Below the pieces are notes generated by a model, which was given only the letters and a program-made list of their open reading frames with translations, searched no databases and was not told the DNA's origin. Both the position numbers and the translations under genes were made by a program. DNA of 40,634 bases from positions 1-40,634 of the forward strand of contig JABEUU010000072.1 in assembly GCA_013044295.1 (NCBI GenBank), in the 5' to 3' direction. Source of the stretch: Candidatus Dormiibacterota bacterium (GTDB lineage: Bacteria; Chloroflexota; Dormibacteria; Aeolococcales; Bog-877). The first letter of the stretch is position 1. Each line of letters begins with the position of its first letter. Of this stretch, positions 1,544 to 13,679 are shown piece after piece.

Positions 1544-3367
1544 TCAGATCTCGGACTCGCTCCAGGGCCGGCACGTCTGCAGTACCGCTCGGGCCGCCTC
1601 CCGGCCCTGCGCCATCGCTCCGACCACCGTCGAGGGGCCTACCAGAGCGTCCCCCACCACCCACATCCGGTCCCCCCTCGGAGCCTGGGCCGCATCCAGC
1701 CCCATCGCCGCCTGGTGACGCCATAGCCAGGTCCACCAACTGGTGCGAACGGCCCCATCACCGGCGCGCCGGTGGTGTAGGAGACGCCCCCAGACACCGC
1801 CTTGAGCGGGCGCCTCAGCCAACGCCAACGTGACCTCCCTGGCCAGTGCCTGAGACCCCACCGTGCCTCCGGCCAAGATACCACTGGCAAGCCAGCGGCG
1901 GGGCGGGATCGCTTGGCGCAGGTCCACCGGCGGTAGGGGCAACTCGACCACCCCCCCGGAGACATCCTTGGCCACCCGGTAGCCAAGCGCGAAGACCACC
2001 CGGTTGACGGTGATGCGCTCGGGCTCTCCGGGGAGCACCCGGGGCCGCTCGCCCACCCGCCGCTGGCGAGTGCGCTGAAGGCATGCGGACGAAACCCCGA
2101 TCGAGTCGCCGTCCAGCCTCTGGACGGTGCAGGAGAAGCGCACCTCCACCCCCTCCTGGCGTGCCTCATCGAGTTCATCAGGGCGGACCCTGGTGAAACG
2201 CTCATCCATCCACTCGACGGCGATCGCGTCGGCTCCGAGCCGGCGCACCGTCCGCGCCACATCCATGGCCGTGTTGCCGCCGCCGACCACGAGCACGCGG
2301 GCCCCGGGGCCAATCTCCGGGAGTAGCTCACCCGCCAGCAGAGCTCGTTTGGCACGGTCCAAGAAGACGGTGGCATCCTCGGTTCCGGGCAGATCTGTCC
2401 CCGGGATCGGAGGCACGATCGGAGCCGAGGCTCCTTGGGCCAGAATCACCGCGTCGTGCTGGTCGACCAGGCCCGCGAGGGCGATGTCCCGGCCGACCTC
2501 GACGCCGGTTCGCAACTCGAGGCCCGCTTCGATGAGGGCGCCGATAGGCCGTTCCGCGACGTCAGTTGGCAGGGTGAAGTCAGGGATTCCCCACCGCAAA
2601 ACCCCCCCGGGGCGCTCGTCCTTTTCGAGCATCGTAACCTTGGCCCCAGCCGCCAGCAACCACCAAGCGGCGGCACAACCAGCCGGCCCTGACCCCACCA
2701 CTGCCACTGACAAATCCACGCCGTCGGCCGAACTTCTCTCCACGCCGGGGACAGCGGCTCGGTCGGTGATGAACCTCTCCAGCTGGCCGATCGCGACCGG
2801 CTGCCCACCGGCGAGGGCCCACGAGCAGGCGCCCTCGCATTGGACGCTCTGGTCGCAGACTCGGCTGCAGATGTCTGGCAGCACGCTGGTCTCCCGCAGG
2901 ACCGCGTGGGCGGTGCCCAGGTCCCGCTCCCGGACGGCGGCGATGAAGCCAGGGATGTCGTTGTGAGCGGGGCACCCTTCCAGGCAGGTGGGGTCCGGGC
3001 ACCTGAGACAGCGCTCGGCCTCCGCCACGGCCTGACCCCAGCTGGAGAAACCTCGGCGGACTTCACGGACGTTTCCGACCAGGGCACTTGGATGTACGAC
3101 TGGGACCTGCTGGCGCGGTCCTACCACCATCGGCCCGCTGACCGAGATCGCGGAGTAGGGACAGACGCGCTGGCACTGGCGACAGCCGACGCAGAGCTGG
3201 TCATCCGCCTGCGCGATCCAGTTCTTGCTGTCGAGGCTGAGGGCGCCGGTGGGGCATCGGATCACACACTCCTGGCAGCCAACACAGCGTTCGGCATCGA
3301 CACGCACCAGCCCGTGGAGCCGGCTTTCGACGTTGAACACGTCGCGCGGCGGCGACTCAACGCTCAT
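1544..3367 (-). CDS. FAD/NAD(P)-dependent oxidoreductase, glutamate-synthase-small-subunit (GltD)-like, with N-terminal 2x[4Fe-4S] ferredoxin domain
   Basis: Motifs CVGCQECVIRCP and CVGCRQCQRVCP; GltD-like CLRCPDPTCLEGCPAHNDIPGFI; nucleotide-binding VAVVGSGPAGCAAAWWL and VLVVGGGNTAMDVART. Confidence 0.9.
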   Translation of the reverse strand: MSVESPPRDVFNVESRLHGLVRVDAERCVGCQECVIRCPTGALSLDSKNWIAQADDQLCVGCRQCQRVCPYSAISVSGPMVVGPRQQVPVVHPSALVGNVREVRRGFSSWGQAVAEAERCLRCPDPTCLEGCPAHNDIPGFIAAVRERDLGTAHAVLRETSVLPDICSRVCDQSVQCEGACSWALAGGQPVAIGQLERFITDRAAVPGVERSSADGVDLSVAVVGSGPAGCAAAWWLLAAGAKVTMLEKDERPGGVLRWGIPDFTLPTDVAERPIGALIEAGLELRTGVEVGRDIALAGLVDQHDAVILAQGASAPIVPPIPGTDLPGTEDATVFLDRAKRALLAGELLPEIGPGARVLVVGGGNTAMDVARTVRRLGADAIAVEWMDERFTRVRPDELDEARQEGVEVRFSCTVQRLDGDSIGVSSACLQRTRQRRVGERPRVLPGEPERITVNRVVFALGYRVAKDVSGGVVELPLPPVDLRQAIPPRRWLASGILAGGTVGSQALAREVTLALAEAPAQGGVWGRLLHHRRAGDGAVRTSWWTWLWRHQAAMGLDAAQAPRGDRMWVVGDALVGPSTVVGAMAQGREAARAVLQTCRPWSESEI

Positions 3368-3410
3368 CAGGCGACCCTCCCCACCAACACCAGGCCAAGT
3401 CCTTGGGCCA

Positions 3411-4961
3411 TCACGAGGCTCCCCCCATGGCGACGTAGAGCAACGCCACGCTCAGACCGCTGAGGCAGATGACCGCGAGACTGACCGCCCGCAGCCTCCC
3501 CAGGTGAGCGGTCAGCGGTCGCAGGTCGCGTCCCGAAATCCGCCAGGTGGCGTAGGCCGCCCCCAGAGTGCCCACGGCCGTCACCACGATCTGGCTGATG
3601 ACCACCCCGTGCGGCGACAGGATCCGGAAGTTGTAGAGGGATGAGTGGGCGGTCCCGAAAAGGTTCCACCCGAACCCGAACGGGTCCGAGATCGCGGGAA
3701 TGATGCGGGCGGCGTGGTACCAGAGTCGCGGCAGCTGGCGGGCCAGGTAGTCCGAGGCCATCAGCGGAATGAAGCCGTAGGCCAGCGGCGCAAACCAGTT
3801 GGCATAGGAGCCGGCCCGGCCGGGCACCCGCCTGACAGCCTTGGCAAAGGCCACGCTCCGCTTCGCCAGCAGCTCCCGGGTGGCCCACGCGTAGGCCCCT
3901 ACCAGCAGCGCCACGATGGCGATGATGCCAAGGTAGTCGACCGGGTTGGGATAGCCCGGGAACCCGGTGGTGCGGTTGAGCCAGCGGTCCAGAGGCGCAT
4001 AGAAAGGCATCGCGTTGACCTGCTGGAAGACCACCAGTCCGAAGAGGATCGCAACCGCCCAGGCGACGTCCACCCGACGCCGGACCGGAGCTATCACCGA
4101 GGTCAGCGGCTTTTGCACGAAGATCCCCACGTTGTCGTAGGGGCAGTTCTTGATGCACTCGGTGCAGAGCCCGCACATCAGGTTCGAAGTCGCGCTCCCG
4201 GGCCACTCGTACCACGGGCACGGGTAGCCCCGCTCGCTTCCTCGCAGGCAATCCTTGGTGGGGCAGGTGATGCAGCGCTCGCGGTCGCGAGTGCGCATAC
4301 CGGCCACCATCCCGGTGGACCCGACCGTGCCGATCAAGGCGGTCAACGGACAGAGGTACCGGCAGAATGTCCGCCGCTCGAAGACCAGGAAGGTCAACAG
4401 GGCGGAGCCGATCACGAAGAACACCAGGAAGCTGGTGAACCGGGGGTCTCCAGGGGCGGCAATGTTGAAGTACTCTTCGAACCAGGTCAGGCCCAGAAAC
4501 ATCGCCACCGAGGGCAGCAGCGCCCACTTGGTCAGGGCCTGGGGCCAGCGCAGGTTGAGCCCGATGGGAGCGGCATGGCGAGCCCACAGCGTGTGCCGCT
4601 GCACCCACTCGCCAAGCCCGCCGAAGGGACACATCACGCACCAGCCCCGGCCAATGCCGACCATCAGCAGGAACACGGCGCAGAACCAGATGTACCAGGT
4701 GATCACCGTGGCGAAGTTCCGGGTTGGGGCAATGATCCCGGCCAAGCCGGTGACAATCACCAACCAGAAGATGATCTGGTTGGGCAGGATCAGCATGAAT
4801 TGGAACGGCCGACTCTTCAGCACCCGGCGAACCCGCGGATTGCGCGAAATGTCGAGCTTGGGGTCGGTGGGACCGAAGTGCTCCGCCTGGCCCTCACGTG
4901 ATGGCGGCCGGAGCTCGCGGGGCAACTCCCGAACCGGCAACTCCCGAAGCGGCAATGCCAT
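3411..4961 (-). CDS. NapH/NosR/CcoG-like polytopic membrane 4Fe-4S protein
   Basis: Several TM segments; GRGWCVMCPFGGLGEW, CRYLCPLTALIG, CITCPTKDC, CGLCTECIKNCPYDNVGIF; strong SD (AGGAGGAG) upstream of ATG 4961. Confidence 0.85.
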   Translation of the reverse strand: MALPLRELPVRELPRELRPPSREGQAEHFGPTDPKLDISRNPRVRRVLKSRPFQFMLILPNQIIFWLVIVTGLAGIIAPTRNFATVITWYIWFCAVFLLMVGIGRGWCVMCPFGGLGEWVQRHTLWARHAAPIGLNLRWPQALTKWALLPSVAMFLGLTWFEEYFNIAAPGDPRFTSFLVFFVIGSALLTFLVFERRTFCRYLCPLTALIGTVGSTGMVAGMRTRDRERCITCPTKDCLRGSERGYPCPWYEWPGSATSNLMCGLCTECIKNCPYDNVGIFVQKPLTSVIAPVRRRVDVAWAVAILFGLVVFQQVNAMPFYAPLDRWLNRTTGFPGYPNPVDYLGIIAIVALLVGAYAWATRELLAKRSVAFAKAVRRVPGRAGSYANWFAPLAYGFIPLMASDYLARQLPRLWYHAARIIPAISDPFGFGWNLFGTAHSSLYNFRILSPHGVVISQIVVTAVGTLGAAYATWRISGRDLRPLTAHLGRLRAVSLAVICLSGLSVALLYVAMGGAS

Positions 4962-5128: not shown

Positions 5129-6751
5129 GTGATTGCAAAGAGCCCGGACCGCCGCGACGCTCTCCTGGAGGCCGGCCTGGGCCTGGCCTCGGAGCTCTCG
5201 CTCTCGGTTGTCCTCGACCGGATCGTGGCTGCGGCCTGCGACTTGACGTCGGCCCGCTACGGGGCGATCGGCGTGCTGGGGCCGACCGGGACCATGGTCG
5301 ACTTCATCACCAGGGGCATCTCCCCAGCCGCCAGGAGACGGATTGGAGACATGCCATCCGGACGCGGGATCCTGGGGGTTTTGATGGCGGACCCCAGGCC
5401 ACTCCGGCTGGCCGATATCTCTAGGGATCCTCGCGCGGCCGGATTCCCCTCACACCATCCCCGGATGACCTCCTTCCTGGGGGCGCCGGTACTGGCCGGA
5501 GGCAGGGTCTTCGGCAACATCTACCTGACCGACAAGCGAGGGGCCGCGGAATTCAGTGGGGAGGACGAGCGGGCCTTAACGATGTTGGCCAGCCAGGCCG
5601 CCGTCGCCATCACCAATGCCACCCTTTATGGAGCCGCTCTCTCCCGAGGGCGCTGGTTGGCGGCCGCCCAGACGATCACCGACGCGACCCTGGCCGGCTC
5701 CCCCATCGGAGAGATATTGGGCCTGGTGGCCGACCGCGCCTGCGAGCTGCTGGCGGGTGACTTTGCCCTGATCGCGACGCCGATCGGAGATGGGGACGGC
5801 GGCCTGCGCATCGAGGCCAGCGCCGGGCGGGGAATCGCCCCGCTCGCCAGCAGGCTCCTGCTGTCACCGCGAGGGCCCGCTGACCGAGCCCTGCGAGGAA
5901 GCCACCCGGTCGTGACCCGAGCCAGCCACCCGGGCGGGAGCGGGCAGCCGGGGCGGGCCACCCCGAGCGGAGCCAGCGTGTTCGCGAAACTCTCCGGTCA
6001 TGAGGGAACCCTGGGGGTCCTGGGGGTGGTTGGGAGACGTGGGCAATCGCCACCGGCGCCGGACGCGGTTCGTATGGTCGAGAGCTTTGCCGCCCAGGCG
6101 GCGGTTGCGCTGGAGTACGCCCGGAGTCGGCACGAACTCCAGCGTCTGGTGCTGCTGGACGAGCGCGAGCGGATCGCCAAGGAGCTCCATGACGGTGTCA
6201 TCCAGTCACTCTTCGCCGTCGGCATGGGCTTGCAGGCCATCAACCCAAGCGCGGCCCCCGACGAGATCGCACGCCGCATCGAAAGTGCGGTCGGAGAGCT
6301 GGACCACGTGATCGGGGACCTGCGCAGCTACATCTTCGGGCTGCGACCGGGAATCCTGACCGATAGACCCCTGGGAGAAGCGCTCCGCCTCTTGACCATG
6401 GAGTTCGAAGCCCGGTGCGGGGTCAGCACCAAAGTTGAGATTGACGATCAGGTGGCGGGGCGACTGACGGAACTGGGCTCGGATGTGGTCCAGCTCACCA
6501 GAGAAGCGCTCTCCAACATCAGCCGCCACGCCCAAGCCCATAGCTGCCGGCTCCGTTTGGCAACTGTGAGAGGATGGGCGGTCTTGACCATTCACGACGA
6601 CGGAGTCGGTTTCGCCCCCTCCGGCGCTCGCACCGCCGGCCTCGGCCTGCTGAACATGGAGCAGCGGGTTGCCGCCCTGGGAGGACGGATGTCGATACGG
6701 TCTCGGCCCCAGCAGGGGACCCGGGTGCGCGTGGCGCTGCCGCTTGACTGA
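5129..6751 (+). CDS. GAF-GAF sensor histidine kinase, DosS/DevS-like
   Basis: GAF1 region DISRDPRAAGFPSHHPRMTSFLGAPVLAGGRVFGNIYLTDK closely resembles the heme-GAF of mycobacterial DosS; H-box ERIAKELHDGVIQSLFAVGMGLQ; HATPase IHDDGVGF..GLGLLNMEQRV. GTG start. Confidence 0.92.
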   Translation: MIAKSPDRRDALLEAGLGLASELSLSVVLDRIVAAACDLTSARYGAIGVLGPTGTMVDFITRGISPAARRRIGDMPSGRGILGVLMADPRPLRLADISRDPRAAGFPSHHPRMTSFLGAPVLAGGRVFGNIYLTDKRGAAEFSGEDERALTMLASQAAVAITNATLYGAALSRGRWLAAAQTITDATLAGSPIGEILGLVADRACELLAGDFALIATPIGDGDGGLRIEASAGRGIAPLASRLLLSPRGPADRALRGSHPVVTRASHPGGSGQPGRATPSGASVFAKLSGHEGTLGVLGVVGRRGQSPPAPDAVRMVESFAAQAAVALEYARSRHELQRLVLLDERERIAKELHDGVIQSLFAVGMGLQAINPSAAPDEIARRIESAVGELDHVIGDLRSYIFGLRPGILTDRPLGEALRLLTMEFEARCGVSTKVEIDDQVAGRLTELGSDVVQLTREALSNISRHAQAHSCRLRLATVRGWAVLTIHDDGVGFAPSGARTAGLGLLNMEQRVAALGGRMSIRSRPQQGTRVRVALPLD

Positions 6752-7427
6752 GTCTGGCACCGGCGCACCCTCCCCCCTGCGCATCATGCTCGTGGACGAC
6801 CACGAGCTGGTGCGCGAGGGCCTGCGCGCAGTGTTGAGTGGGGTGCCCGAGTTCGAGGTCGTGGCCGAGGCCGGTGACGCGGCGGCCGCGATCCGAGACG
6901 CGGAGCGAGCCCGGCCCGACGTGGTCGTGATGGACGTCCGGCTCGGGTCCGGCAGTGGGATCGAGGTGACTCGGGAGATCCGGGCTCGAAATCCCCAGGT
7001 CCGGGTACTCATGCTGACCTCCTTCGCCGACGACGAGGCGCTGTTCGCCTCGATCATGGCCGGCGCCGCGGGATACCTTTTGAAGCAGATCAGGAGCGGT
7101 GAAATCGTGCAGGCGATTCGCGCCATCGGGGCCGGGCAGAGCCTGCTCGACCCCGCCGTAACCAAAGCCGTCCTGGACCAGTGGCGGCAGGCGCGGAGTT
7201 TGATCCGGGACGAGAGGCTAGCCCGCCTCTCCACCACCGAGGAGCGGATCCTGGCACTGGTCGCCGAGGGTCGCACCAACCGGGAGGTGGGGGCGGCCTT
7301 GCATCTGGCCGAGAAGACCGTGAAGAACTACGTCTCCAGCATCCTCGCCAAGCTCGAGGTGGCCCGGCGAGCAGAGGCAGCGGCCTACCTCGCTCGCCAC
7401 AGCACGGTGTCTCCGCCGAAGCTGTAG
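6744..7427 (+). CDS. LuxR/NarL-family response regulator, DosR/DevR-like
   Basis: REC domain LRIMLVDDHELVREG..DVVVMDVRL..; HTH LSTTEERILALVAEGRTNREVGAALHLAEKTVKNYVSSILAKL. Probable TTG start overlaps the kinase stop; the ORF-track start at 6669 is probably too early. Confidence 0.92.
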   Translation: MTESGTGAPSPLRIMLVDDHELVREGLRAVLSGVPEFEVVAEAGDAAAAIRDAERARPDVVVMDVRLGSGSGIEVTREIRARNPQVRVLMLTSFADDEALFASIMAGAAGYLLKQIRSGEIVQAIRAIGAGQSLLDPAVTKAVLDQWRQARSLIRDERLARLSTTEERILALVAEGRTNREVGAALHLAEKTVKNYVSSILAKLEVARRAEAAAYLARHSTVSPPKL

Positions 7428-7565
7428 GGCCCAGTGCCGACTCGGCTCGGGATGGCCCCGCGTCGGTCCGGTTGAGGGCTTGGTCCCCCTCCACCCGGGT
7501 GACACGCCGCCCGCCCGACCGCACTCCGGGCCTGGCGACGGTTGTGCGAGCCCCAAAGCCCTGGT

Positions 7566-7997
7566 TCAGGAGTCCAGCAGCACCCCGTAGTCGGTCGTCT
7601 CCCCGCCACCCGCCAGGCCCTTAGCGGGCGGGACGTCACTGCCCTTCTCCACCAAGCCCATCACATGGTCGCTGACGCCCTCCCGGCGCAGCACCTCCCA
7701 GCCGGCCTCCAGCGAGAGCTCGTTCAGGACCACCACCAGGTCCCCCTCGATGCGGACATCCCAGCCGATGTTCTCCAACCGTCGCAGCACGTCGCTGAGG
7801 ATGGAGAGCCGCTCATGGACCAGCTTTCCGGAAGCGGCCAGCCGGACGGAAACGGGCAGGTTGGCGGCCCTGGGCCGGTCCGGAAAGCCGAAGGAGTGCA
7901 TCTCCAGGTAGGTCTCCATCGTCCGGGAGATCGGCGGTTTGGTCACCTCCCGGAACTCGTCGGATGCCTTGTGTATGGGGCGGAAGATCAGCTTCAC
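7566..7997 (-). CDS. Conserved-looking hypothetical protein, 143 aa, last gene of the cytochrome cluster
   Basis: GTG start at 7997 overlaps the TGA of the upstream CydA-like gene (GTGA). VKLIFRPIHKASDEFREVTKPPISRTMETYLEMHSFGFPDRP... no family recognised. Confidence 0.7.
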   Translation of the reverse strand: MKLIFRPIHKASDEFREVTKPPISRTMETYLEMHSFGFPDRPRAANLPVSVRLAASGKLVHERLSILSDVLRRLENIGWDVRIEGDLVVVLNELSLEAGWEVLRREGVSDHVMGLVEKGSDVPPAKGLAGGGETTDYGVLLDS

Positions 7998-9385
7998 GGG
8001 TGCAGGTCCGACGGCATGATGATCGACACTCCGCTGGCCGGGCCGTTGAGGGCTGGACCGCTGGCGGAGGGCGGGGTGAAGTCCTGCTGCTGGTTGATCA
8101 ACATGTGGTTGGTGATCAGGAATGGGCCACGACTGTTCTCCCGGATATAACCCATCAGGGCCATGATCAGCGAGATGGACACCCCCACCGCGATCAGGGC
8201 CACCGCCTGGCTCTTGCCGGCGTCTCCCCAATGCAAGCGCCCCCGGCTGACGTGTTTCAGATAGAGGGTGATGGCCACGATCGCGACCCCGGTGAAGGTG
8301 ACCAGGGCGGTCAGCTTCCAGGGGATCATGGCTCCCCAGGGGATCAGCAGGCCGCCCTGCCAGATGGGCACGTTGGCATTGGCCGCGAAGACGCTCTCGT
8401 AGCTCCAGGCCAGGGACGATGGAGTCGAGATCAGCAGCCAAGCCAGGAACGACAAGGCGGTGCACACAGCCAGGGCGGGAGAACGAAACCCACTGGCCCG
8501 GACCCGGCGCCACAGGTAAAAGATACCCCCGGTGAAGATCAGCCCGAGCAGGAACACCTGGAACAAGAAGGCCACGCTGAGCCCGCCCAGCATCATGTCG
8601 TACCAGGAGGCGTAGGCATGGAGCTGGATCTCCTTGGCGTACTCCCACCCAACCAGAGGCTGGGCGATGGTGAACCCGATCGCCCACACCAGCCCGTATT
8701 GCCCCATCCAGTCCACGTAGGCGCGCAGCTGGGGTGCCTTGGCGCGCCTCAGCAGGCGGATCCCCGCCACCAGGGCGATGATCGCTCCGGCGAAGGCGAT
8801 GTTGCCCACGAAGCGGTGGATCTCCAGGGGGATCATGGTGGGGTTGAACATGATCAAAGGCAGGTTGAAGGCCGGCCGGGGGGTCAGCATGTAGGAGGCG
8901 ACCATGTTGATCAACAGCATTTGGATGGAGGCGTTGACGAAGAGCAGGACCTCCAAGCCAACCCGGAGCCCGCGCACCCGGCCGAGCTGTTCCCACCTGG
9001 CGTAGAGCGGGTAGAGGCAGGCGATCTCTCCCACGAAGGCCGCCGCCTCGGCCAGCAGGGGCCAGAAGAGGACGCGCAGGAGGGTGACCCAGAAATGGCT
9101 CCAAAGGCCGGTGAACAGGATCACGACCGCGAAGATCGCCAGTGATCCCCCCAGCGCGAAGCTAGCCCCCAGCATCGTGACCAAACCCCTGGAAAAGCGG
9201 TCGTGATGTTCGCTCTTGCGCTTCCAGCCCATGAAGTCGCTCACCGCCAGGATGATGTAGCCGCCCTGCTGCCAGGCCGCGAACTGGACATGCATGGTCA
9301 TGATCACGGCCACCAGGATGGTGGCCACCCCAGTGGAGATCGGGACCGGCGTCAGCTGCGGGGCGAGAGCGCCAAGCAAGTGCAT
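7994..9385 (-). CDS. Cytochrome bd oxidase subunit I (CydA)-like membrane protein, copy 1
   Basis: Polytopic; MHVQFA (H19-like), HRFVGNIAFAGAII (H186-like), SWYDMMLGG (M393-like), AEAAAFVGE acidic pair. Only about 20 residues between presumed TM6 and TM7, so no long Q-loop; C-terminal MGYIRENSRGPF. Confidence 0.82.
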   Translation of the reverse strand: MHLLGALAPQLTPVPISTGVATILVAVIMTMHVQFAAWQQGGYIILAVSDFMGWKRKSEHHDRFSRGLVTMLGASFALGGSLAIFAVVILFTGLWSHFWVTLLRVLFWPLLAEAAAFVGEIACLYPLYARWEQLGRVRGLRVGLEVLLFVNASIQMLLINMVASYMLTPRPAFNLPLIMFNPTMIPLEIHRFVGNIAFAGAIIALVAGIRLLRRAKAPQLRAYVDWMGQYGLVWAIGFTIAQPLVGWEYAKEIQLHAYASWYDMMLGGLSVAFLFQVFLLGLIFTGGIFYLWRRVRASGFRSPALAVCTALSFLAWLLISTPSSLAWSYESVFAANANVPIWQGGLLIPWGAMIPWKLTALVTFTGVAIVAITLYLKHVSRGRLHWGDAGKSQAVALIAVGVSISLIMALMGYIRENSRGPFLITNHMLINQQQDFTPPSASGPALNGPASGVSIIMPSDLHP

Positions 9386-9386
9386 A

Positions 9387-10601
9387 TCAGAGGTTGAAGA
9401 GCCGGTTGACGGCGAGCATCGCCTCGAAGATGAGGAAAAGGAGCACGAACAAGGCCGGCACCATCACCTCGGGGCGACGCCATGGTTGGCGTCCTGGGGT
9501 GCGGTCAAGGAAGGGTACCAGGATCAGCAGGGTGGTCCCGATCCCCGGCAGGATGAAGACTCCGACCGGGATCATCCAGGCCTGGGGGAACTGCACCAGC
9601 AGCTGGTCCAAGGGCAGGAAAAACCACTCCGGGGTGGGCACGTAGTTGAGGGCGGCTGGGTTGGCCGCCCTCTCGATGGGAGCCCCAATTACGATCGCCA
9701 TGATGAAGATCAGCAACACCAGGCCAAAGCTCACCAAGGCGTCCTTGAACACCTGGGACGGGAAGAAGTCGTCCAAGTCCATCGGGACCGCGTAGCCGGG
9801 ATCGCTGGGGAGAGCGGGATAGGGAGCTTCCGCGCGGGCCATCCGCTCGGCTCGCTCGGCCTCGGTCTCCTCCTCCACTCCCTCGTAGTTGACCCAGGAC
9901 CCGTGCTCCCCGTGGCGGCGGAGCAGGATCAGGTGGAGTCCGATCAGGGGCACCAAGAGCGCCGGCAACAGCCAGATGTGGATGGCGAAGAAGCGGGTGA
10001 GGGTGGCGGGACCCATCTGAGGGCCGCCCCGCAGGATCTCCTGCAGCTGAGTGCCAAAGATGGGGAAGTAGTCGACCACATGGGTGACCACGGTCGCCGT
10101 CCAATAGGCGGCCTGGTCCCAGGGCAGCATCGCCCCGGTGATCCCCAGCCCCAGCACCAGCAGGAACAGCACCACGCCGACGATCCAGTTCAGCTCCCGG
10201 GGCTTCTTGTAGGAGCCGCTCACGAAGGTCCGGACCATATGGAGCCCGATCACCACGAAGAGGATGTAGGCCCCCCAGAGGTGCATCCCCCGGACGATGG
10301 CGGCGAACTCGTCGTGGTGTTCGATGAAGTTCAGGCTCAGCCAGGCCTCCGTGGTGGATGGCACATAGGTCCAGAGCAGGAACATCCCAGTCACGATCTG
10401 GAGGACGATCAGAATCAGGGTGGCACTTCCCAGCGAGTAGGCCCAGGCGCCGCGCCTGGGCACCGCCTCGTAGAGCAACTGGTGGACCAGGTCGGTGACG
10501 CCCAGGCGCTCGTCGACCCAGCGATAGGTGGTGGCCATCAACCCCGAGATCGGTCGGGTCAGCCTCCCGACCAGGACGCTGCGCTCTAGCTCCTCCGCCA
10601 C
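9387..10601 (-). CDS. Cytochrome b of a bc1/b6f-type complex (fused b6 + subunit IV-like)
   Basis: H-N13-H in HLWGAYILFVVIGLH; H-N14-H in HIWLLPALLVPLIGLH (b6-type spacing); GAMLPWDQAAYW; PEWF ef-loop variant in NYVPTPEWFFLPLDQLL. Confidence 0.93.
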   Translation of the reverse strand: MAEELERSVLVGRLTRPISGLMATTYRWVDERLGVTDLVHQLLYEAVPRRGAWAYSLGSATLILIVLQIVTGMFLLWTYVPSTTEAWLSLNFIEHHDEFAAIVRGMHLWGAYILFVVIGLHMVRTFVSGSYKKPRELNWIVGVVLFLLVLGLGITGAMLPWDQAAYWTATVVTHVVDYFPIFGTQLQEILRGGPQMGPATLTRFFAIHIWLLPALLVPLIGLHLILLRRHGEHGSWVNYEGVEEETEAERAERMARAEAPYPALPSDPGYAVPMDLDDFFPSQVFKDALVSFGLVLLIFIMAIVIGAPIERAANPAALNYVPTPEWFFLPLDQLLVQFPQAWMIPVGVFILPGIGTTLLILVPFLDRTPGRQPWRRPEVMVPALFVLLFLIFEAMLAVNRLFNL

Positions 10602-10602
10602 C

Positions 10603-11124
10603 TCACTGGCCCTCCGTGAGCACGTTGCGAACGTAGAGGGTGGTGCCCACCAGCTTGTGCTGGTAGCGGAAAAGCGGCTGGGGCGGTGGGCCCCCGATGT
10701 TGGTGCCGATCATGCTGTAGAGGCCACCGTGGCAGGGACACAGGAACACCTGCAGGTTGACGTCCCAGTGCACATCGCATTGCATGTGGGTGCAGACGTT
10801 GGAGAGGGTGATCAGCTGGACCGCGTTGCTGAGATTGGCCTTGACCACGTAAACGGTCCGGGGCACGGCCGGCACCTGCCAGGCGTCCCCGCTGTCATTG
10901 AGCATGACCACGTAGGCGGTCGGCACCCCGACCGGGACATGCCGGATGTCAGCCACCATCACCCAGGGCTGCTTGCTCTTGTAAAAGACGGGGCTGAGAA
11001 TGTCGCCCACGATGGGGGCCGCGATCAGGAGGCCGGTCGCGGCCCCGGCCGCATTGATGCCCATGATCATGAAGCGGCGGCGCGACATCCGACGCGCCGA
11101 AGCCTTCACCGGGGACTCAGCCAC
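10603..11124 (-). CDS. Rieske [2Fe-2S] iron-sulfur protein
   Basis: CTHMQC...CPCHGG cluster ligands; Tat-like RMSRRRFMIMGINAAGAATGLLIAAP. Confidence 0.95.
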   Translation of the reverse strand: MAESPVKASARRMSRRRFMIMGINAAGAATGLLIAAPIVGDILSPVFYKSKQPWVMVADIRHVPVGVPTAYVVMLNDSGDAWQVPAVPRTVYVVKANLSNAVQLITLSNVCTHMQCDVHWDVNLQVFLCPCHGGLYSMIGTNIGGPPPQPLFRYQHKLVGTTLYVRNVLTEGQ

Positions 11125-11350
11125 TTCCGAGCGCCACTATCTCGACCAGCAGGGCCAAGCAGAGTCCCAACAGAAATAGGAACGTGAACAGGCTGGCCCC
11201 TACTGTGAGCCAGGCCGACATCTCGTCGCCTGCCAGGAAGAGCTGGCGGACTCGCTTCATGGCGCTCCAGAAGCCCACCAGCATGATCACGAAGAAGGCG
11301 GTCACGATCAGACCTATGTACCAGGCCGACTCGAAGTCCTGGTAGTTCAC
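11117..11350 (-). CDS. Small membrane protein (77 aa, two predicted TM segments) of the cytochrome cluster
   Basis: MNYQDFESAWYIGLIVTAFFVIMLVGFW...LTVGASLFTFLFLLGLCLALLVEIVAL; overlaps both neighbours (8 nt and 4 nt). Confidence 0.75.
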   Translation of the reverse strand: MNYQDFESAWYIGLIVTAFFVIMLVGFWSAMKRVRQLFLAGDEMSAWLTVGASLFTFLFLLGLCLALLVEIVALGSG

Positions 11351-12618
11351 GGAAGCACCCCAGGGGGGGCATTGAAGTTCTGGGCGGACTGATGCAGGGT
11401 GAGCAGGCAGGCGCTCTGCCCGGTGGTCGCGTCGATCCCACAGGGGAGCTTGGCGTTCTCCTTGATCACCCCCATGAAAATCGACAGCGCCAGGGCCGCC
11501 ACCCCCACGGTGGCGATCAGGCGACCCACCGAGCGCCCCAGCATCACCTCTGGCCCGGTGTGGCGGAGCGAGCGCAGGTAACGGACCAGGTTGATGGCGG
11601 TCGCGACGAAGGCGATCAACAGTGCCAGGTAGCGGAGCAGCACCAGCTGACTGGGTATGACCGCCGCCGGCAGGGCCGTCCCGGCCATCCCCAGGAGCGC
11701 CACCACCGTCAGGCTGGCCCCGGTGCCCTGATCCTGGAGCTCGGGGTTGTGCAGCCAGAAGACCAGGTTGGCGCCCAGCACCACGACCGCCAGCAGTACC
11801 ACCATCCCGATGAACATCGTCCCGGAGTTGAAGATGAAGAGGTTGTCGAAGGCCGGAGCCGACGAGGTCTTGATGCTCTCAGCCAGCAGGAACCCGGTGA
11901 CCGGCTGGGCCATCAGAAAGACCGAGCCGATCGCAAAGTTGATCCGGGCCGCCCAGCGCTGGTAGATCGCCTCGGCCTCTGACTTGGCCCTCCGGCCCCT
12001 CCAGATCGCGACCGCGGCCAGGAACAGCGCCGACCACGAGATGGCGCCGCCCGCGTACATGAGCAGCAGCCAGGGGTAGCTGGGTGAGTACATGGCATGG
12101 GCGGCGCTGATGGCGGTCCCGGGGGTGAGGGCGTAGCTGTCCAGCTGGACGATCATGAACAGGAAGAGGAACTGGATCGCCGAGAAGGTAAAGCCAATCG
12201 CCAGGTGCAGGCGGGAGTTCAGCTTGTCCCAGCCGTAGACGTAGAGCAGCAGCAGCGGCACCCCCACGAAGAAGCTCGCAAAGGCGATCGTGAGCGGCAG
12301 CAGCAGGAGGTTGAGGAGAGTTCCGATCAGCCGGCCATAGATGCCGGTCAGGAGAACCACCGCCATCACCGCCCAGGTCGCCCCGAAGCTGTAGAGGTAC
12401 AAGATGGCGTGGGCGAGGCTGCGGGCGTAGCGCAGGTAGCGCTCGTCCCCCCCCCTGCGCCGGCCCGCCAGCTCCATGAAGGGAGCCAGACCGGCCGCGC
12501 CCAAGATGAATCCGACCAGCGCAATATGGATCAGGAAGGTGGCGCCTATCGTGATCTCGGCACCGAGGGTGCCGAAGGGTAGGCGCGGTTGCGGGGTCGG
12601 GAATGCGGAGAAGAGCAC
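11347..12618 (-). CDS. CydA-like membrane protein, copy 2 (divergent, putative CydA'-type)
   Basis: Shares C-terminal MGVIKENAKLPC with MGYIRENSRGPF of copy 1; FLIHIALVGFILG (H19-like), VYGWDKL resembles E. coli CydA GWDRL. GTG 12618 preferred here; ORF track extends to TTG 12657. Confidence 0.75.
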   Translation of the reverse strand: MLFSAFPTPQPRLPFGTLGAEITIGATFLIHIALVGFILGAAGLAPFMELAGRRRGGDERYLRYARSLAHAILYLYSFGATWAVMAVVLLTGIYGRLIGTLLNLLLLPLTIAFASFFVGVPLLLLYVYGWDKLNSRLHLAIGFTFSAIQFLFLFMIVQLDSYALTPGTAISAAHAMYSPSYPWLLLMYAGGAISWSALFLAAVAIWRGRRAKSEAEAIYQRWAARINFAIGSVFLMAQPVTGFLLAESIKTSSAPAFDNLFIFNSGTMFIGMVVLLAVVVLGANLVFWLHNPELQDQGTGASLTVVALLGMAGTALPAAVIPSQLVLLRYLALLIAFVATAINLVRYLRSLRHTGPEVMLGRSVGRLIATVGVAALALSIFMGVIKENAKLPCGIDATTGQSACLLTLHQSAQNFNAPPGVLP

Positions 12619-12698
12619 TGCCCTGCAATGCTGACGGGCCGAGGGGTCCGAGGGCAACCCTGGAGCGATATCAATCTCGATCTCGCCATACTCTGGGC

Positions 12699-13679
12699 AT
12701 GCTTGAGCCGCTCCTCTTGATCCACGGAGCAGACTCCTACCTGGTCACCAAGGCCGCCCAGGAGGCGCGCTCCGCGCTCTGCCAGGACCTGATCTCGGAC
12801 CTCGGCCTGGAGGAGTTCAAGGCATCGGCAGATCTGGATGCCATCGAGCGCAGCCTGGCCACCCCTCCGTTCCTGGCCATCCGTCGCGTGGTGATGATCT
12901 GGGACCCGCCCCAGCTGGGTGGCGGCAAGCGCTCGCCCCGGGAGATGGAGCGCCTCTTGGCAACCCTGGCGGCCCGCGCCGAGACCACGGCCACCTGCCT
13001 GGTGGTGCGGACCCAGCTACCGGTCACCTCGGTCCTCGGCAAAGGAGTGCGGGCGCTCGGGGGTGAAGTGCGCCTGATTCCGCGGCCCACCGGCCACGAC
13101 CTGAGAGGCTACCTGGAACGACGCCTCCAGGCCCGCAGCTTGCGGCTGCCGGCGGGCGCGGTCCGGCTCCTGCTCGAGGTCGCGGCTCAGGACCTTGGCT
13201 GGCTGGAGATGGAGCTGGAGAAGCTGGAGCTCTACCAGCAAGGAGGTCAAGTGATCGGCGATGAGGAGGCCTCCATTCTGATCACCCCGGCACCTCCTAC
13301 CGATCTGTACCGGGTGACCGACGCGCTCTTCGACAGTCCGGCCACCGCCGGACCGAGGCTTCAGGCGGTGCTCTCCCGTCCGGATATTCAGCCCCCCATG
13401 GTGGTGGGCTCCCTAGCCCGAACGCTGAGAGATCTCATCGCCTATTCGGATTCCCGGGCGAACCCACCGGTAAAGGCGGTCCCGCCGTGGCTCCAGGAAC
13501 GGCTCGCCCGGCAACTGAAGCAGGTCGGACGCGAACGGGCCCGACGTTGGCTGGTCGAACTAGCGGACCTGGATTGGGCCACGAGAACGGGCCTGGTGGA
13601 CGCCGCTAGCGGGCTGGACGCGCTCCTGGCCAGAATCGCGGTCGAAATTCAGCGGGGCCGAATGGACCGGACCCCCTAA
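12699..13679 (+). CDS. holA: DNA polymerase III subunit delta
   Basis: LLLIHGADSYLVTKAAQEARSALCQDL.., DLGWLEMELEKLELY, overall HolA-like layout. ATG 12699 preferred over the ORF-track start 12603. Confidence 0.85.
   Translation: MLEPLLLIHGADSYLVTKAAQEARSALCQDLISDLGLEEFKASADLDAIERSLATPPFLAIRRVVMIWDPPQLGGGKRSPREMERLLATLAARAETTATCLVVRTQLPVTSVLGKGVRALGGEVRLIPRPTGHDLRGYLERRLQARSLRLPAGAVRLLLEVAAQDLGWLEMELEKLELYQQGGQVIGDEEASILITPAPPTDLYRVTDALFDSPATAGPRLQAVLSRPDIQPPMVVGSLARTLRDLIAYSDSRANPPVKAVPPWLQERLARQLKQVGRERARRWLVELADLDWATRTGLVDAASGLDALLARIAVEIQRGRMDRTP

Follow-up and report, generated by a model that had tools for sequence, protein, structure and literature searches.

A compact cluster of bc-type and CydA-like genes

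The contig JABEUU010000072.1 (40,634 nucleotides, analysed whole and hereafter called the window) belongs to the assembly GCA_013044295.1 of a Candidatus Dormiibacterota bacterium and carries a six-gene cluster that joins a Rieske protein and a cytochrome b to two CydA-like proteins. The window genome (G000), of 2,296,128 bases in 226 contigs, was described as metagenome-assembled genome (MAG) 12 (SAMN14771063) from acid mine drainage and assigned to Dormibacteria, order UBA8260, family Bog-877 (PMC8357290). Its named near relatives are Candidatus Dormiibacterota MAGs. Standard annotation overlooks the cluster: Pfam misses one of the CydA-like proteins, and the only oxidase given in the published description of the genome is of the caa3 type (PMC8357290).

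The six genes are tightly packed on the minus strand (7566-12618), with gene-to-gene spacings of -4, -8, +1, +1 and -4 nt, in the order and packing that a first-pass annotation of this DNA had described. They encode CydA-like 2 (11347..12618; 423 amino acids, aa; GTG start backed by relatives; PF01654, 47.3 bits), a 77-aa protein with two predicted transmembrane (TM) helices and no Pfam family (11117..11350), a Rieske [2Fe-2S] protein (10603..11124; PF00355, 28.5 bits), a cytochrome b in the fused b6/subunit IV form (9387..10601; PF00033, 159.5 bits; PF13631, 141.6 bits), CydA-like 1 (7994..9385; 463 aa) and a 143-aa soluble protein with neither a TM segment nor a Pfam or NCBIfam match (7566..7997). 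The flanking genes lie on the opposite strand and were named by reading the sequence rather than by family search: on one side a histidine kinase with a response regulator (5129-7427), on the other a gene resembling DNA polymerase III delta (12603 onward). The earlier claim that none of the six genes contains a CXXCH motif extends to every called gene of the 40-kb window, and CydB (PF02322) was not found in the window genome.

The Rieske and cytochrome b proteins have the features of a cytochrome bc/b6f-type module. The Rieske protein has a single N-terminal TM helix preceded by RRR, and its boxes are CTHMQC and CPCHGG; the cluster ligands are invariant in 25/25 sequences, and the matches to NF045928 and TIGR01416 fall below the cut-off. 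The four heme-ligand histidines of cytochrome b (107, 121, 208 and 223) are invariant in all 26 sequences. Its Qo motif is PEWF in the window, and the PEW motif is present in 24/26. Rieske protein, cytochrome b, ligands and PEW motif are thus as in cytochrome b6f and bc1; unlike in these, cytochrome b and subunit IV are fused, there is no cysteine for heme ci, and a cytochrome f or c1 partner is lacking. The c-type subunit of bc1 and bcc complexes is accordingly missing, with no CXXCH in the window genes and no PF00034 match in G000. As for the two small proteins, the slot of the 77-aa protein is filled at the other examined loci by a hydrophobic protein of 74-89 aa. The 143-aa protein is conserved in the window's family and was also detected in three loci of family f2 and in the f4 locus.

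Two CydA paralogues without a quinol site

The family searches that had been suggested as a check gave Pfam matches for the Rieske protein, cytochrome b and CydA-like 2, while CydA-like 1 could be placed through its orthologues and a profile. The sequence of CydA-like 1 alone matches no Pfam family, and phmmer against the PDB returned only chance matches, so profiles were needed. PF01654 is matched by 10/18 aligned orthologues of CydA-like 1 (best 1.1e-21) and by 17/18 of those of CydA-like 2. When the CydA-like 1 profile was compared with solved structures, the top six matches were all CydA (5doq_A, E=1.3e-12), and hhalign aligned it with canonical CydA (E=6.7e-10) and with CydA-like 2 (E=9.6e-72). 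Foldseek searches with weak AlphaFold models of both proteins also ranked CydA chains first, which we take as corroboration only. Judged by this homology, both proteins belong to the cytochrome bd superfamily and would have the CydA fold.

We mapped residues onto E. coli CydA using 25 aligned sequences, 24 of which cover E445 and R448. By this mapping, H32, E113, E120, H190, E416 and R419 of CydA-like 1 correspond to H19, E99, E107, H186, E445 and R448. The equivalents of H19, E99 and H186 are present in 25/25 sequences and those of E445 and R448 in 24/24. CydA-like 1 thus has, by alignment, the heme ligands of the oxygen site (H19, E99 and E445), and we presume that it is the catalytic member of the pair. 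CydA-like 2 keeps the equivalent of H19 (H31, in 25/25) and has E387 at the position of E445. In the window its E99 and E107 equivalents are Ala112 and Gly119; across the aligned sequences the E99 position holds Ala, Val or Ile, and E107 is lost. Because both acids are gone, CydA-like 2 probably does not reduce oxygen and would be a degenerate paralogue of the CydA' type. The position of H186, a ligand of heme b558, is Met187 in CydA-like 2 of the window and His in the 24 others of the 25 aligned sequences.

The Q-loop is absent from the CydA-like proteins: E257 falls in a gap in all of them, K252 is found in none, and M393 is replaced in all. Together with the missing CydB, this sets the pair apart from canonical quinol-oxidising bd enzymes (CydAB). 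Two CydA paralogues lacking a quinol site are instead the pattern of the OR-N type CydAA', and the first-pass description of two paralogues without Q-loop or CydB holds under residue mapping and the PF02322 search. Near the position where the Q-loop begins in E. coli, CydA-like 1 has a histidine (H256) that is shared by 23/25 sequences. The only two loci without it are those with a cytochrome c gene in the operon (see below). These two loci are sisters in the tree, and hence we treat the correspondence as a lead only.

The cluster is inherited as a unit

Relatives of CydA-like 1 were present in 19 of the 201 genomes that we sampled from the phylum. We compared 26 neighbourhoods from seven families: 15 from the window's family, 3 from a second family of the order, 5 from two further families of the class and 3 from other families of the phylum. 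In 26/26, a few of them cut by the end of a contig or slice, the genes for CydA-like 2, the small membrane protein, Rieske, cytochrome b and CydA-like 1 follow one another in this order on one strand. With the same order in every neighbourhood, the arrangement is not due to chance, and the linkage of bc and CydA-like genes on which the first-pass reading depended is confirmed. CydA-like 1 and CydA-like 2 form one clade each, and their branching orders match. Both clades stand apart from the two quinol-oxidising CydA sequences used as references, as that reading also required. The pairwise distances of CydA-like 1, CydA-like 2, cytochrome b and Rieske correlate at 0.94-0.98, and at 0.84-0.95 on diverse members. 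The conserved order, the matching trees and the correlated distances therefore indicate that the operon is inherited as a unit. Searching 110 genomes of the class with the cluster's cytochrome b gave strong matches throughout the window's family (18/18 genomes) and, for the other families, in part.

These data bear on the simplest alternative, in which a complex III merely lies beside an ordinary quinol-oxidising bd oxidase. CydA-like 2 does match the Pfam model of quinol oxidase subunit I. Yet the lack of CydB and Q-loop, with E257 absent throughout, the separate clades and the linkage in 26/26 make this account highly improbable, and the canonical cydAB pair of one genome, G135, lies on a different contig from its cluster.

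Apparent loss of cytochrome c in the window's family

The cytochrome c maturation family PF01578 was found in 0/18 genomes of the window's family versus 10/11 of the cluster-bearing genomes outside it, a contrast that is statistically strong (Fisher p 5e-7) though it probably reflects a single evolutionary loss. Cytochromes c follow the same pattern: PF00034 is matched in 1/18 genomes of the family versus 11/11 outside, and PF13442 in 0/5 versus 11/11. The sole PF00034 match of the family may be a contaminant: its MAG (G205) is 64% complete and has no c maturation, and the match sits where a contig ends. Since the contrast persists among MAGs of similar fragmentation, incompleteness is unlikely to be its cause. 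Hence, cytochrome c seems to have disappeared from the window's family altogether, probably through one loss in its ancestor. The studied cluster is also the only place in this family where a full-length cytochrome b was found. Outside the family, G054 has a separate cluster of Rieske, cytochrome b and cytochrome c genes ahead of a heme-copper oxidase.

A possible quinol:O2 oxidoreductase

The operon could encode one membrane complex working as a quinol:O2 oxidoreductase, in which CydA-like 1 would take electrons from the Rieske protein and reduce O2 and CydA-like 2 would be a structural partner, a proposal that we believe and doubt in equal measure. Such a physical complex, its heme content and its activity are what we infer from the sequences. 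Cytochrome b and the Rieske protein would oxidise quinol at a normal Qo site by a Q-cycle. From the Rieske head, which would lie on the outer side of the membrane, the high-potential electron would then reach the outer heme of CydA-like 1, whose heme pair (H32, E113 and E416) would be the site of O2 reduction. CydA-like 2 would act as a non-catalytic, CydB-like partner in a CydAA' scaffold, and the 2-TM protein could be a linker subunit. The window's family apparently makes no cytochrome c, so electrons would there cross between the two halves directly or through a bound non-heme carrier; a small cytochrome c could connect the halves in distant relatives. Direct transfer from Rieske to CydA is plausible, and cytochrome c is an unlikely donor to the CydA-like pair in the window's family. 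The stricter version, a quinol:O2 supercomplex in which the sole full-length bc complex of a family without cytochrome c feeds a bd-type heme directly, with neither a c heme nor copper in the path, is tentative, and we lean slightly towards doubting it.

Several observations weigh against this proposal. Two distant relatives, G081 and G177 (2/26 clusters), encode a monoheme cytochrome c immediately downstream of CydA-like 1, and the lone bd-like genes of G137 and G047 adjoin a CXXCH protein, so cytochrome c is likely the ancestral electron donor. The expectation that no dedicated cytochrome c would neighbour the cluster in relatives thus fails in part, at these two loci. In CydA-like 1, the loss of M393 leaves the ligation of b558 uncertain. 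The AlphaFold models of the two CydA-like proteins have low confidence (mean pLDDT 46.6 and 53.4); with pLDDT too low and an alignment restricted to close relatives, we rejected them for heme geometry. Finally, the family retains a CuA-type heme-copper oxidase whose COX2 CuA motif (GQCYEFCGVGHDQM) is intact, as well as blue-copper lipoproteins. Both need a donor, and the studied cluster is the sole full-length bc complex that could supply them.

Electron transfer by a copper carrier from the bc half to either oxidase is a serious rival, because the family keeps this oxidase and these lipoproteins, which are sometimes encoded near the cluster. The Rieske/cytochrome b half could reduce a membrane-anchored blue-copper protein, which would serve the CuA heme-copper oxidase as well as the bd-like pair; a cupredoxin would then have taken the place of cytochrome c, like sulfocyanin in Sulfolobus. 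All ten family genomes tested (10/10) encode at least one plastocyanin-type protein, and one of the lipoproteins has an intact C-H-M site (CTLHPGM). In several genomes the lipoprotein gene is found 0.5-10 kb from the cluster; in G208 it is 0.5 kb away and convergent. This link is a loose one, however. The cupredoxin is outside the operon in every family locus read, and in the window genome it is on another contig, at 7045-7473 of G000:C122. The single cupredoxin-like gene found inside a cluster, a lipoprotein gene of G036 between CydA-like 1 and the homologue of the 143-aa protein (L039, 5511-5870), lacks the C-H-M copper-ligand motif. We consider this rival rather unlikely.

The CydA-like pair could also be an electron conduit from the Rieske protein to a soluble acceptor, standing in for cytochrome c1, or could run in reverse and feed the quinone pool. 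The loss of M393, of the Q-loop and of the catalytic acid of CydA-like 2 would suit such a role, and a reverse-flow, complex-III-like function was suggested for the bd-like proteins of Nitrospina (PMC3578206). A mere conduit would nevertheless have no need for the equivalents of H19, E99 and E445, which CydA-like 1 keeps in all sequences covering them, and we find this option distinctly improbable. The self-contained quinol-oxidising supercomplex of the first-pass annotation is thus partly supported, by the paralogues, the linkage and the family-wide loss of c maturation; its self-contained character is put in question by the cytochromes c of G081 and G177 and by the copper carriers that the family has kept.

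Other redox genes of the window, the family and the phylum

The window contains a second minus-strand redox locus at 1544-4823, possibly a redox unit of its own: one gene encodes a 607-aa oxidoreductase of the ferredoxin/flavin NAD(P) type (Fer4_20, Pyr_redox_2), the other a 4Fe-4S membrane protein of 470 aa (Fer4_5). Elsewhere in the window genome, the heme-copper oxidase genes of this family without cytochrome c occupy 8258-13550 of G000:C219 (L084), with the CuA motif intact; a conserved membrane protein of 359-388 aa without Pfam family is encoded downstream. A weak second cytochrome b of the family was rejected as an alternative complex III, since it is short and has no Rieske gene beside it. 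The family has a conserved trio (G000:C122, L120, 3313-5118; L121, 16064-17869) of a 55-aa membrane protein, a short cytochrome b (PF00033, ~40 bits) and a protein of 328-335 aa that matches no Pfam family. Rieske is not nearby; the distance to a gene for a blue-copper lipoprotein is at most 2-3 kb.

Outside the family, two loci (L048, 2658-4759; L049, 1565-3643) show a lone bd-like gene followed by genes for a CXXCH protein, likely a membrane-anchored cytochrome c, and a small membrane protein. This is possibly another unit of the phylum combining a CydA-like protein and cytochrome c. Most of the other clusters, and lone loci, have next to or near the bd-like genes a gene for a universal stress protein (Usp) with one to five PCP_red domains (PF08369, the family of the 57 kD subunit of protochlorophyllide reductase); an ABC-2 ATPase/permease pair often accompanies it. 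These genes, all outside the window's family and at both bc-linked and lone loci, are at L036 2741-5338, L040 6045-8555, L041 14902-16143, L043 15557-18175, L044 12498-14486, L045 4529-6580, L046 11749-13692, L047 5733-6920, L048 933-2141 and L050 7306-8505. Since heme d is a chlorin, a role of these proteins in heme handling is conceivable.

Relation to known systems and implications

The SoxM supercomplex of Sulfolobus is likewise a cytochrome-c-free Rieske and cytochrome b module of an acidophile; its terminal enzyme is a CuA heme-copper oxidase with sulfocyanin, where here we find bd-like proteins. The archaeal CydAA' enzyme of Murali and colleagues (2021) reportedly oxidises quinol itself; here, in contrast, the Q-loop residues are absent and the bc module probably supplies the electrons. 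As far as that enzyme is described in the papers citing it, the two share a pair of CydA paralogues and the lack of CydB (PMC10839748, PMC8951039). The bd-like oxidase of Nitrospina and Kuenenia resembles ours in a CydA-like N terminus with heme ligands and has TM helices in place of the Q-loop; the function of the Nitrospina protein was termed enigmatic. It differs in being a single protein, encoded in an NXR cluster with cytochromes c and cupredoxins and outside any Rieske/cytochrome b operon (PMC3578206).

The closest parallel is in Nitrospira. In N. moscoviensis, two bd-like genes and several cytochromes c accompany those of complex III, and the cytochrome b, Rieske and bd-like proteins were proposed to assemble into a supercomplex (PMC6606698), so that the general kind is already published. 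That region (CIII_1 with bd-like_1 and bd-like_2, OR-N1/OR-N2 CydAA') has, like ours, Rieske and cytochrome b genes with two CydA-like genes and no canonical CydB (PMC6606698, PMC12342949, PMC10839748). OR-N CydAA' has been hypothesised to oxidise cytochrome c (PMC10839748, PMC12342949). The Nitrospira region, with its several cytochromes c and NXR anchor, is presumed to do so, unlike the compact, cytochrome-c-free operon of six genes described here. Most likely, our cluster is a cytochrome-c-free variant of this Nitrospira kind. What is new is the absence of cytochrome c maturation genes from 18/18 genomes of the window's family and of any cytochrome c domain from 17/18. A full-text literature search on oxidases together with Dormibacterota or Dormibacteria found no description of the cluster, within partial coverage that leaves an earlier mention in Murali 2021 possible.

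The cluster bears on the question of which donor feeds bd-type oxidases without a quinol site. Here the sole complete bc module and the CydA pair lie in one operon, and the family is apparently unable to make cytochrome c. This removes the usual donor candidate and makes direct transfer from Rieske to a bd-type heme testable. If such a transfer takes place, the Q-cycle implies that such a chain would separate roughly twice as much charge as a quinol bd oxidase does, using neither copper nor c-type cytochromes.

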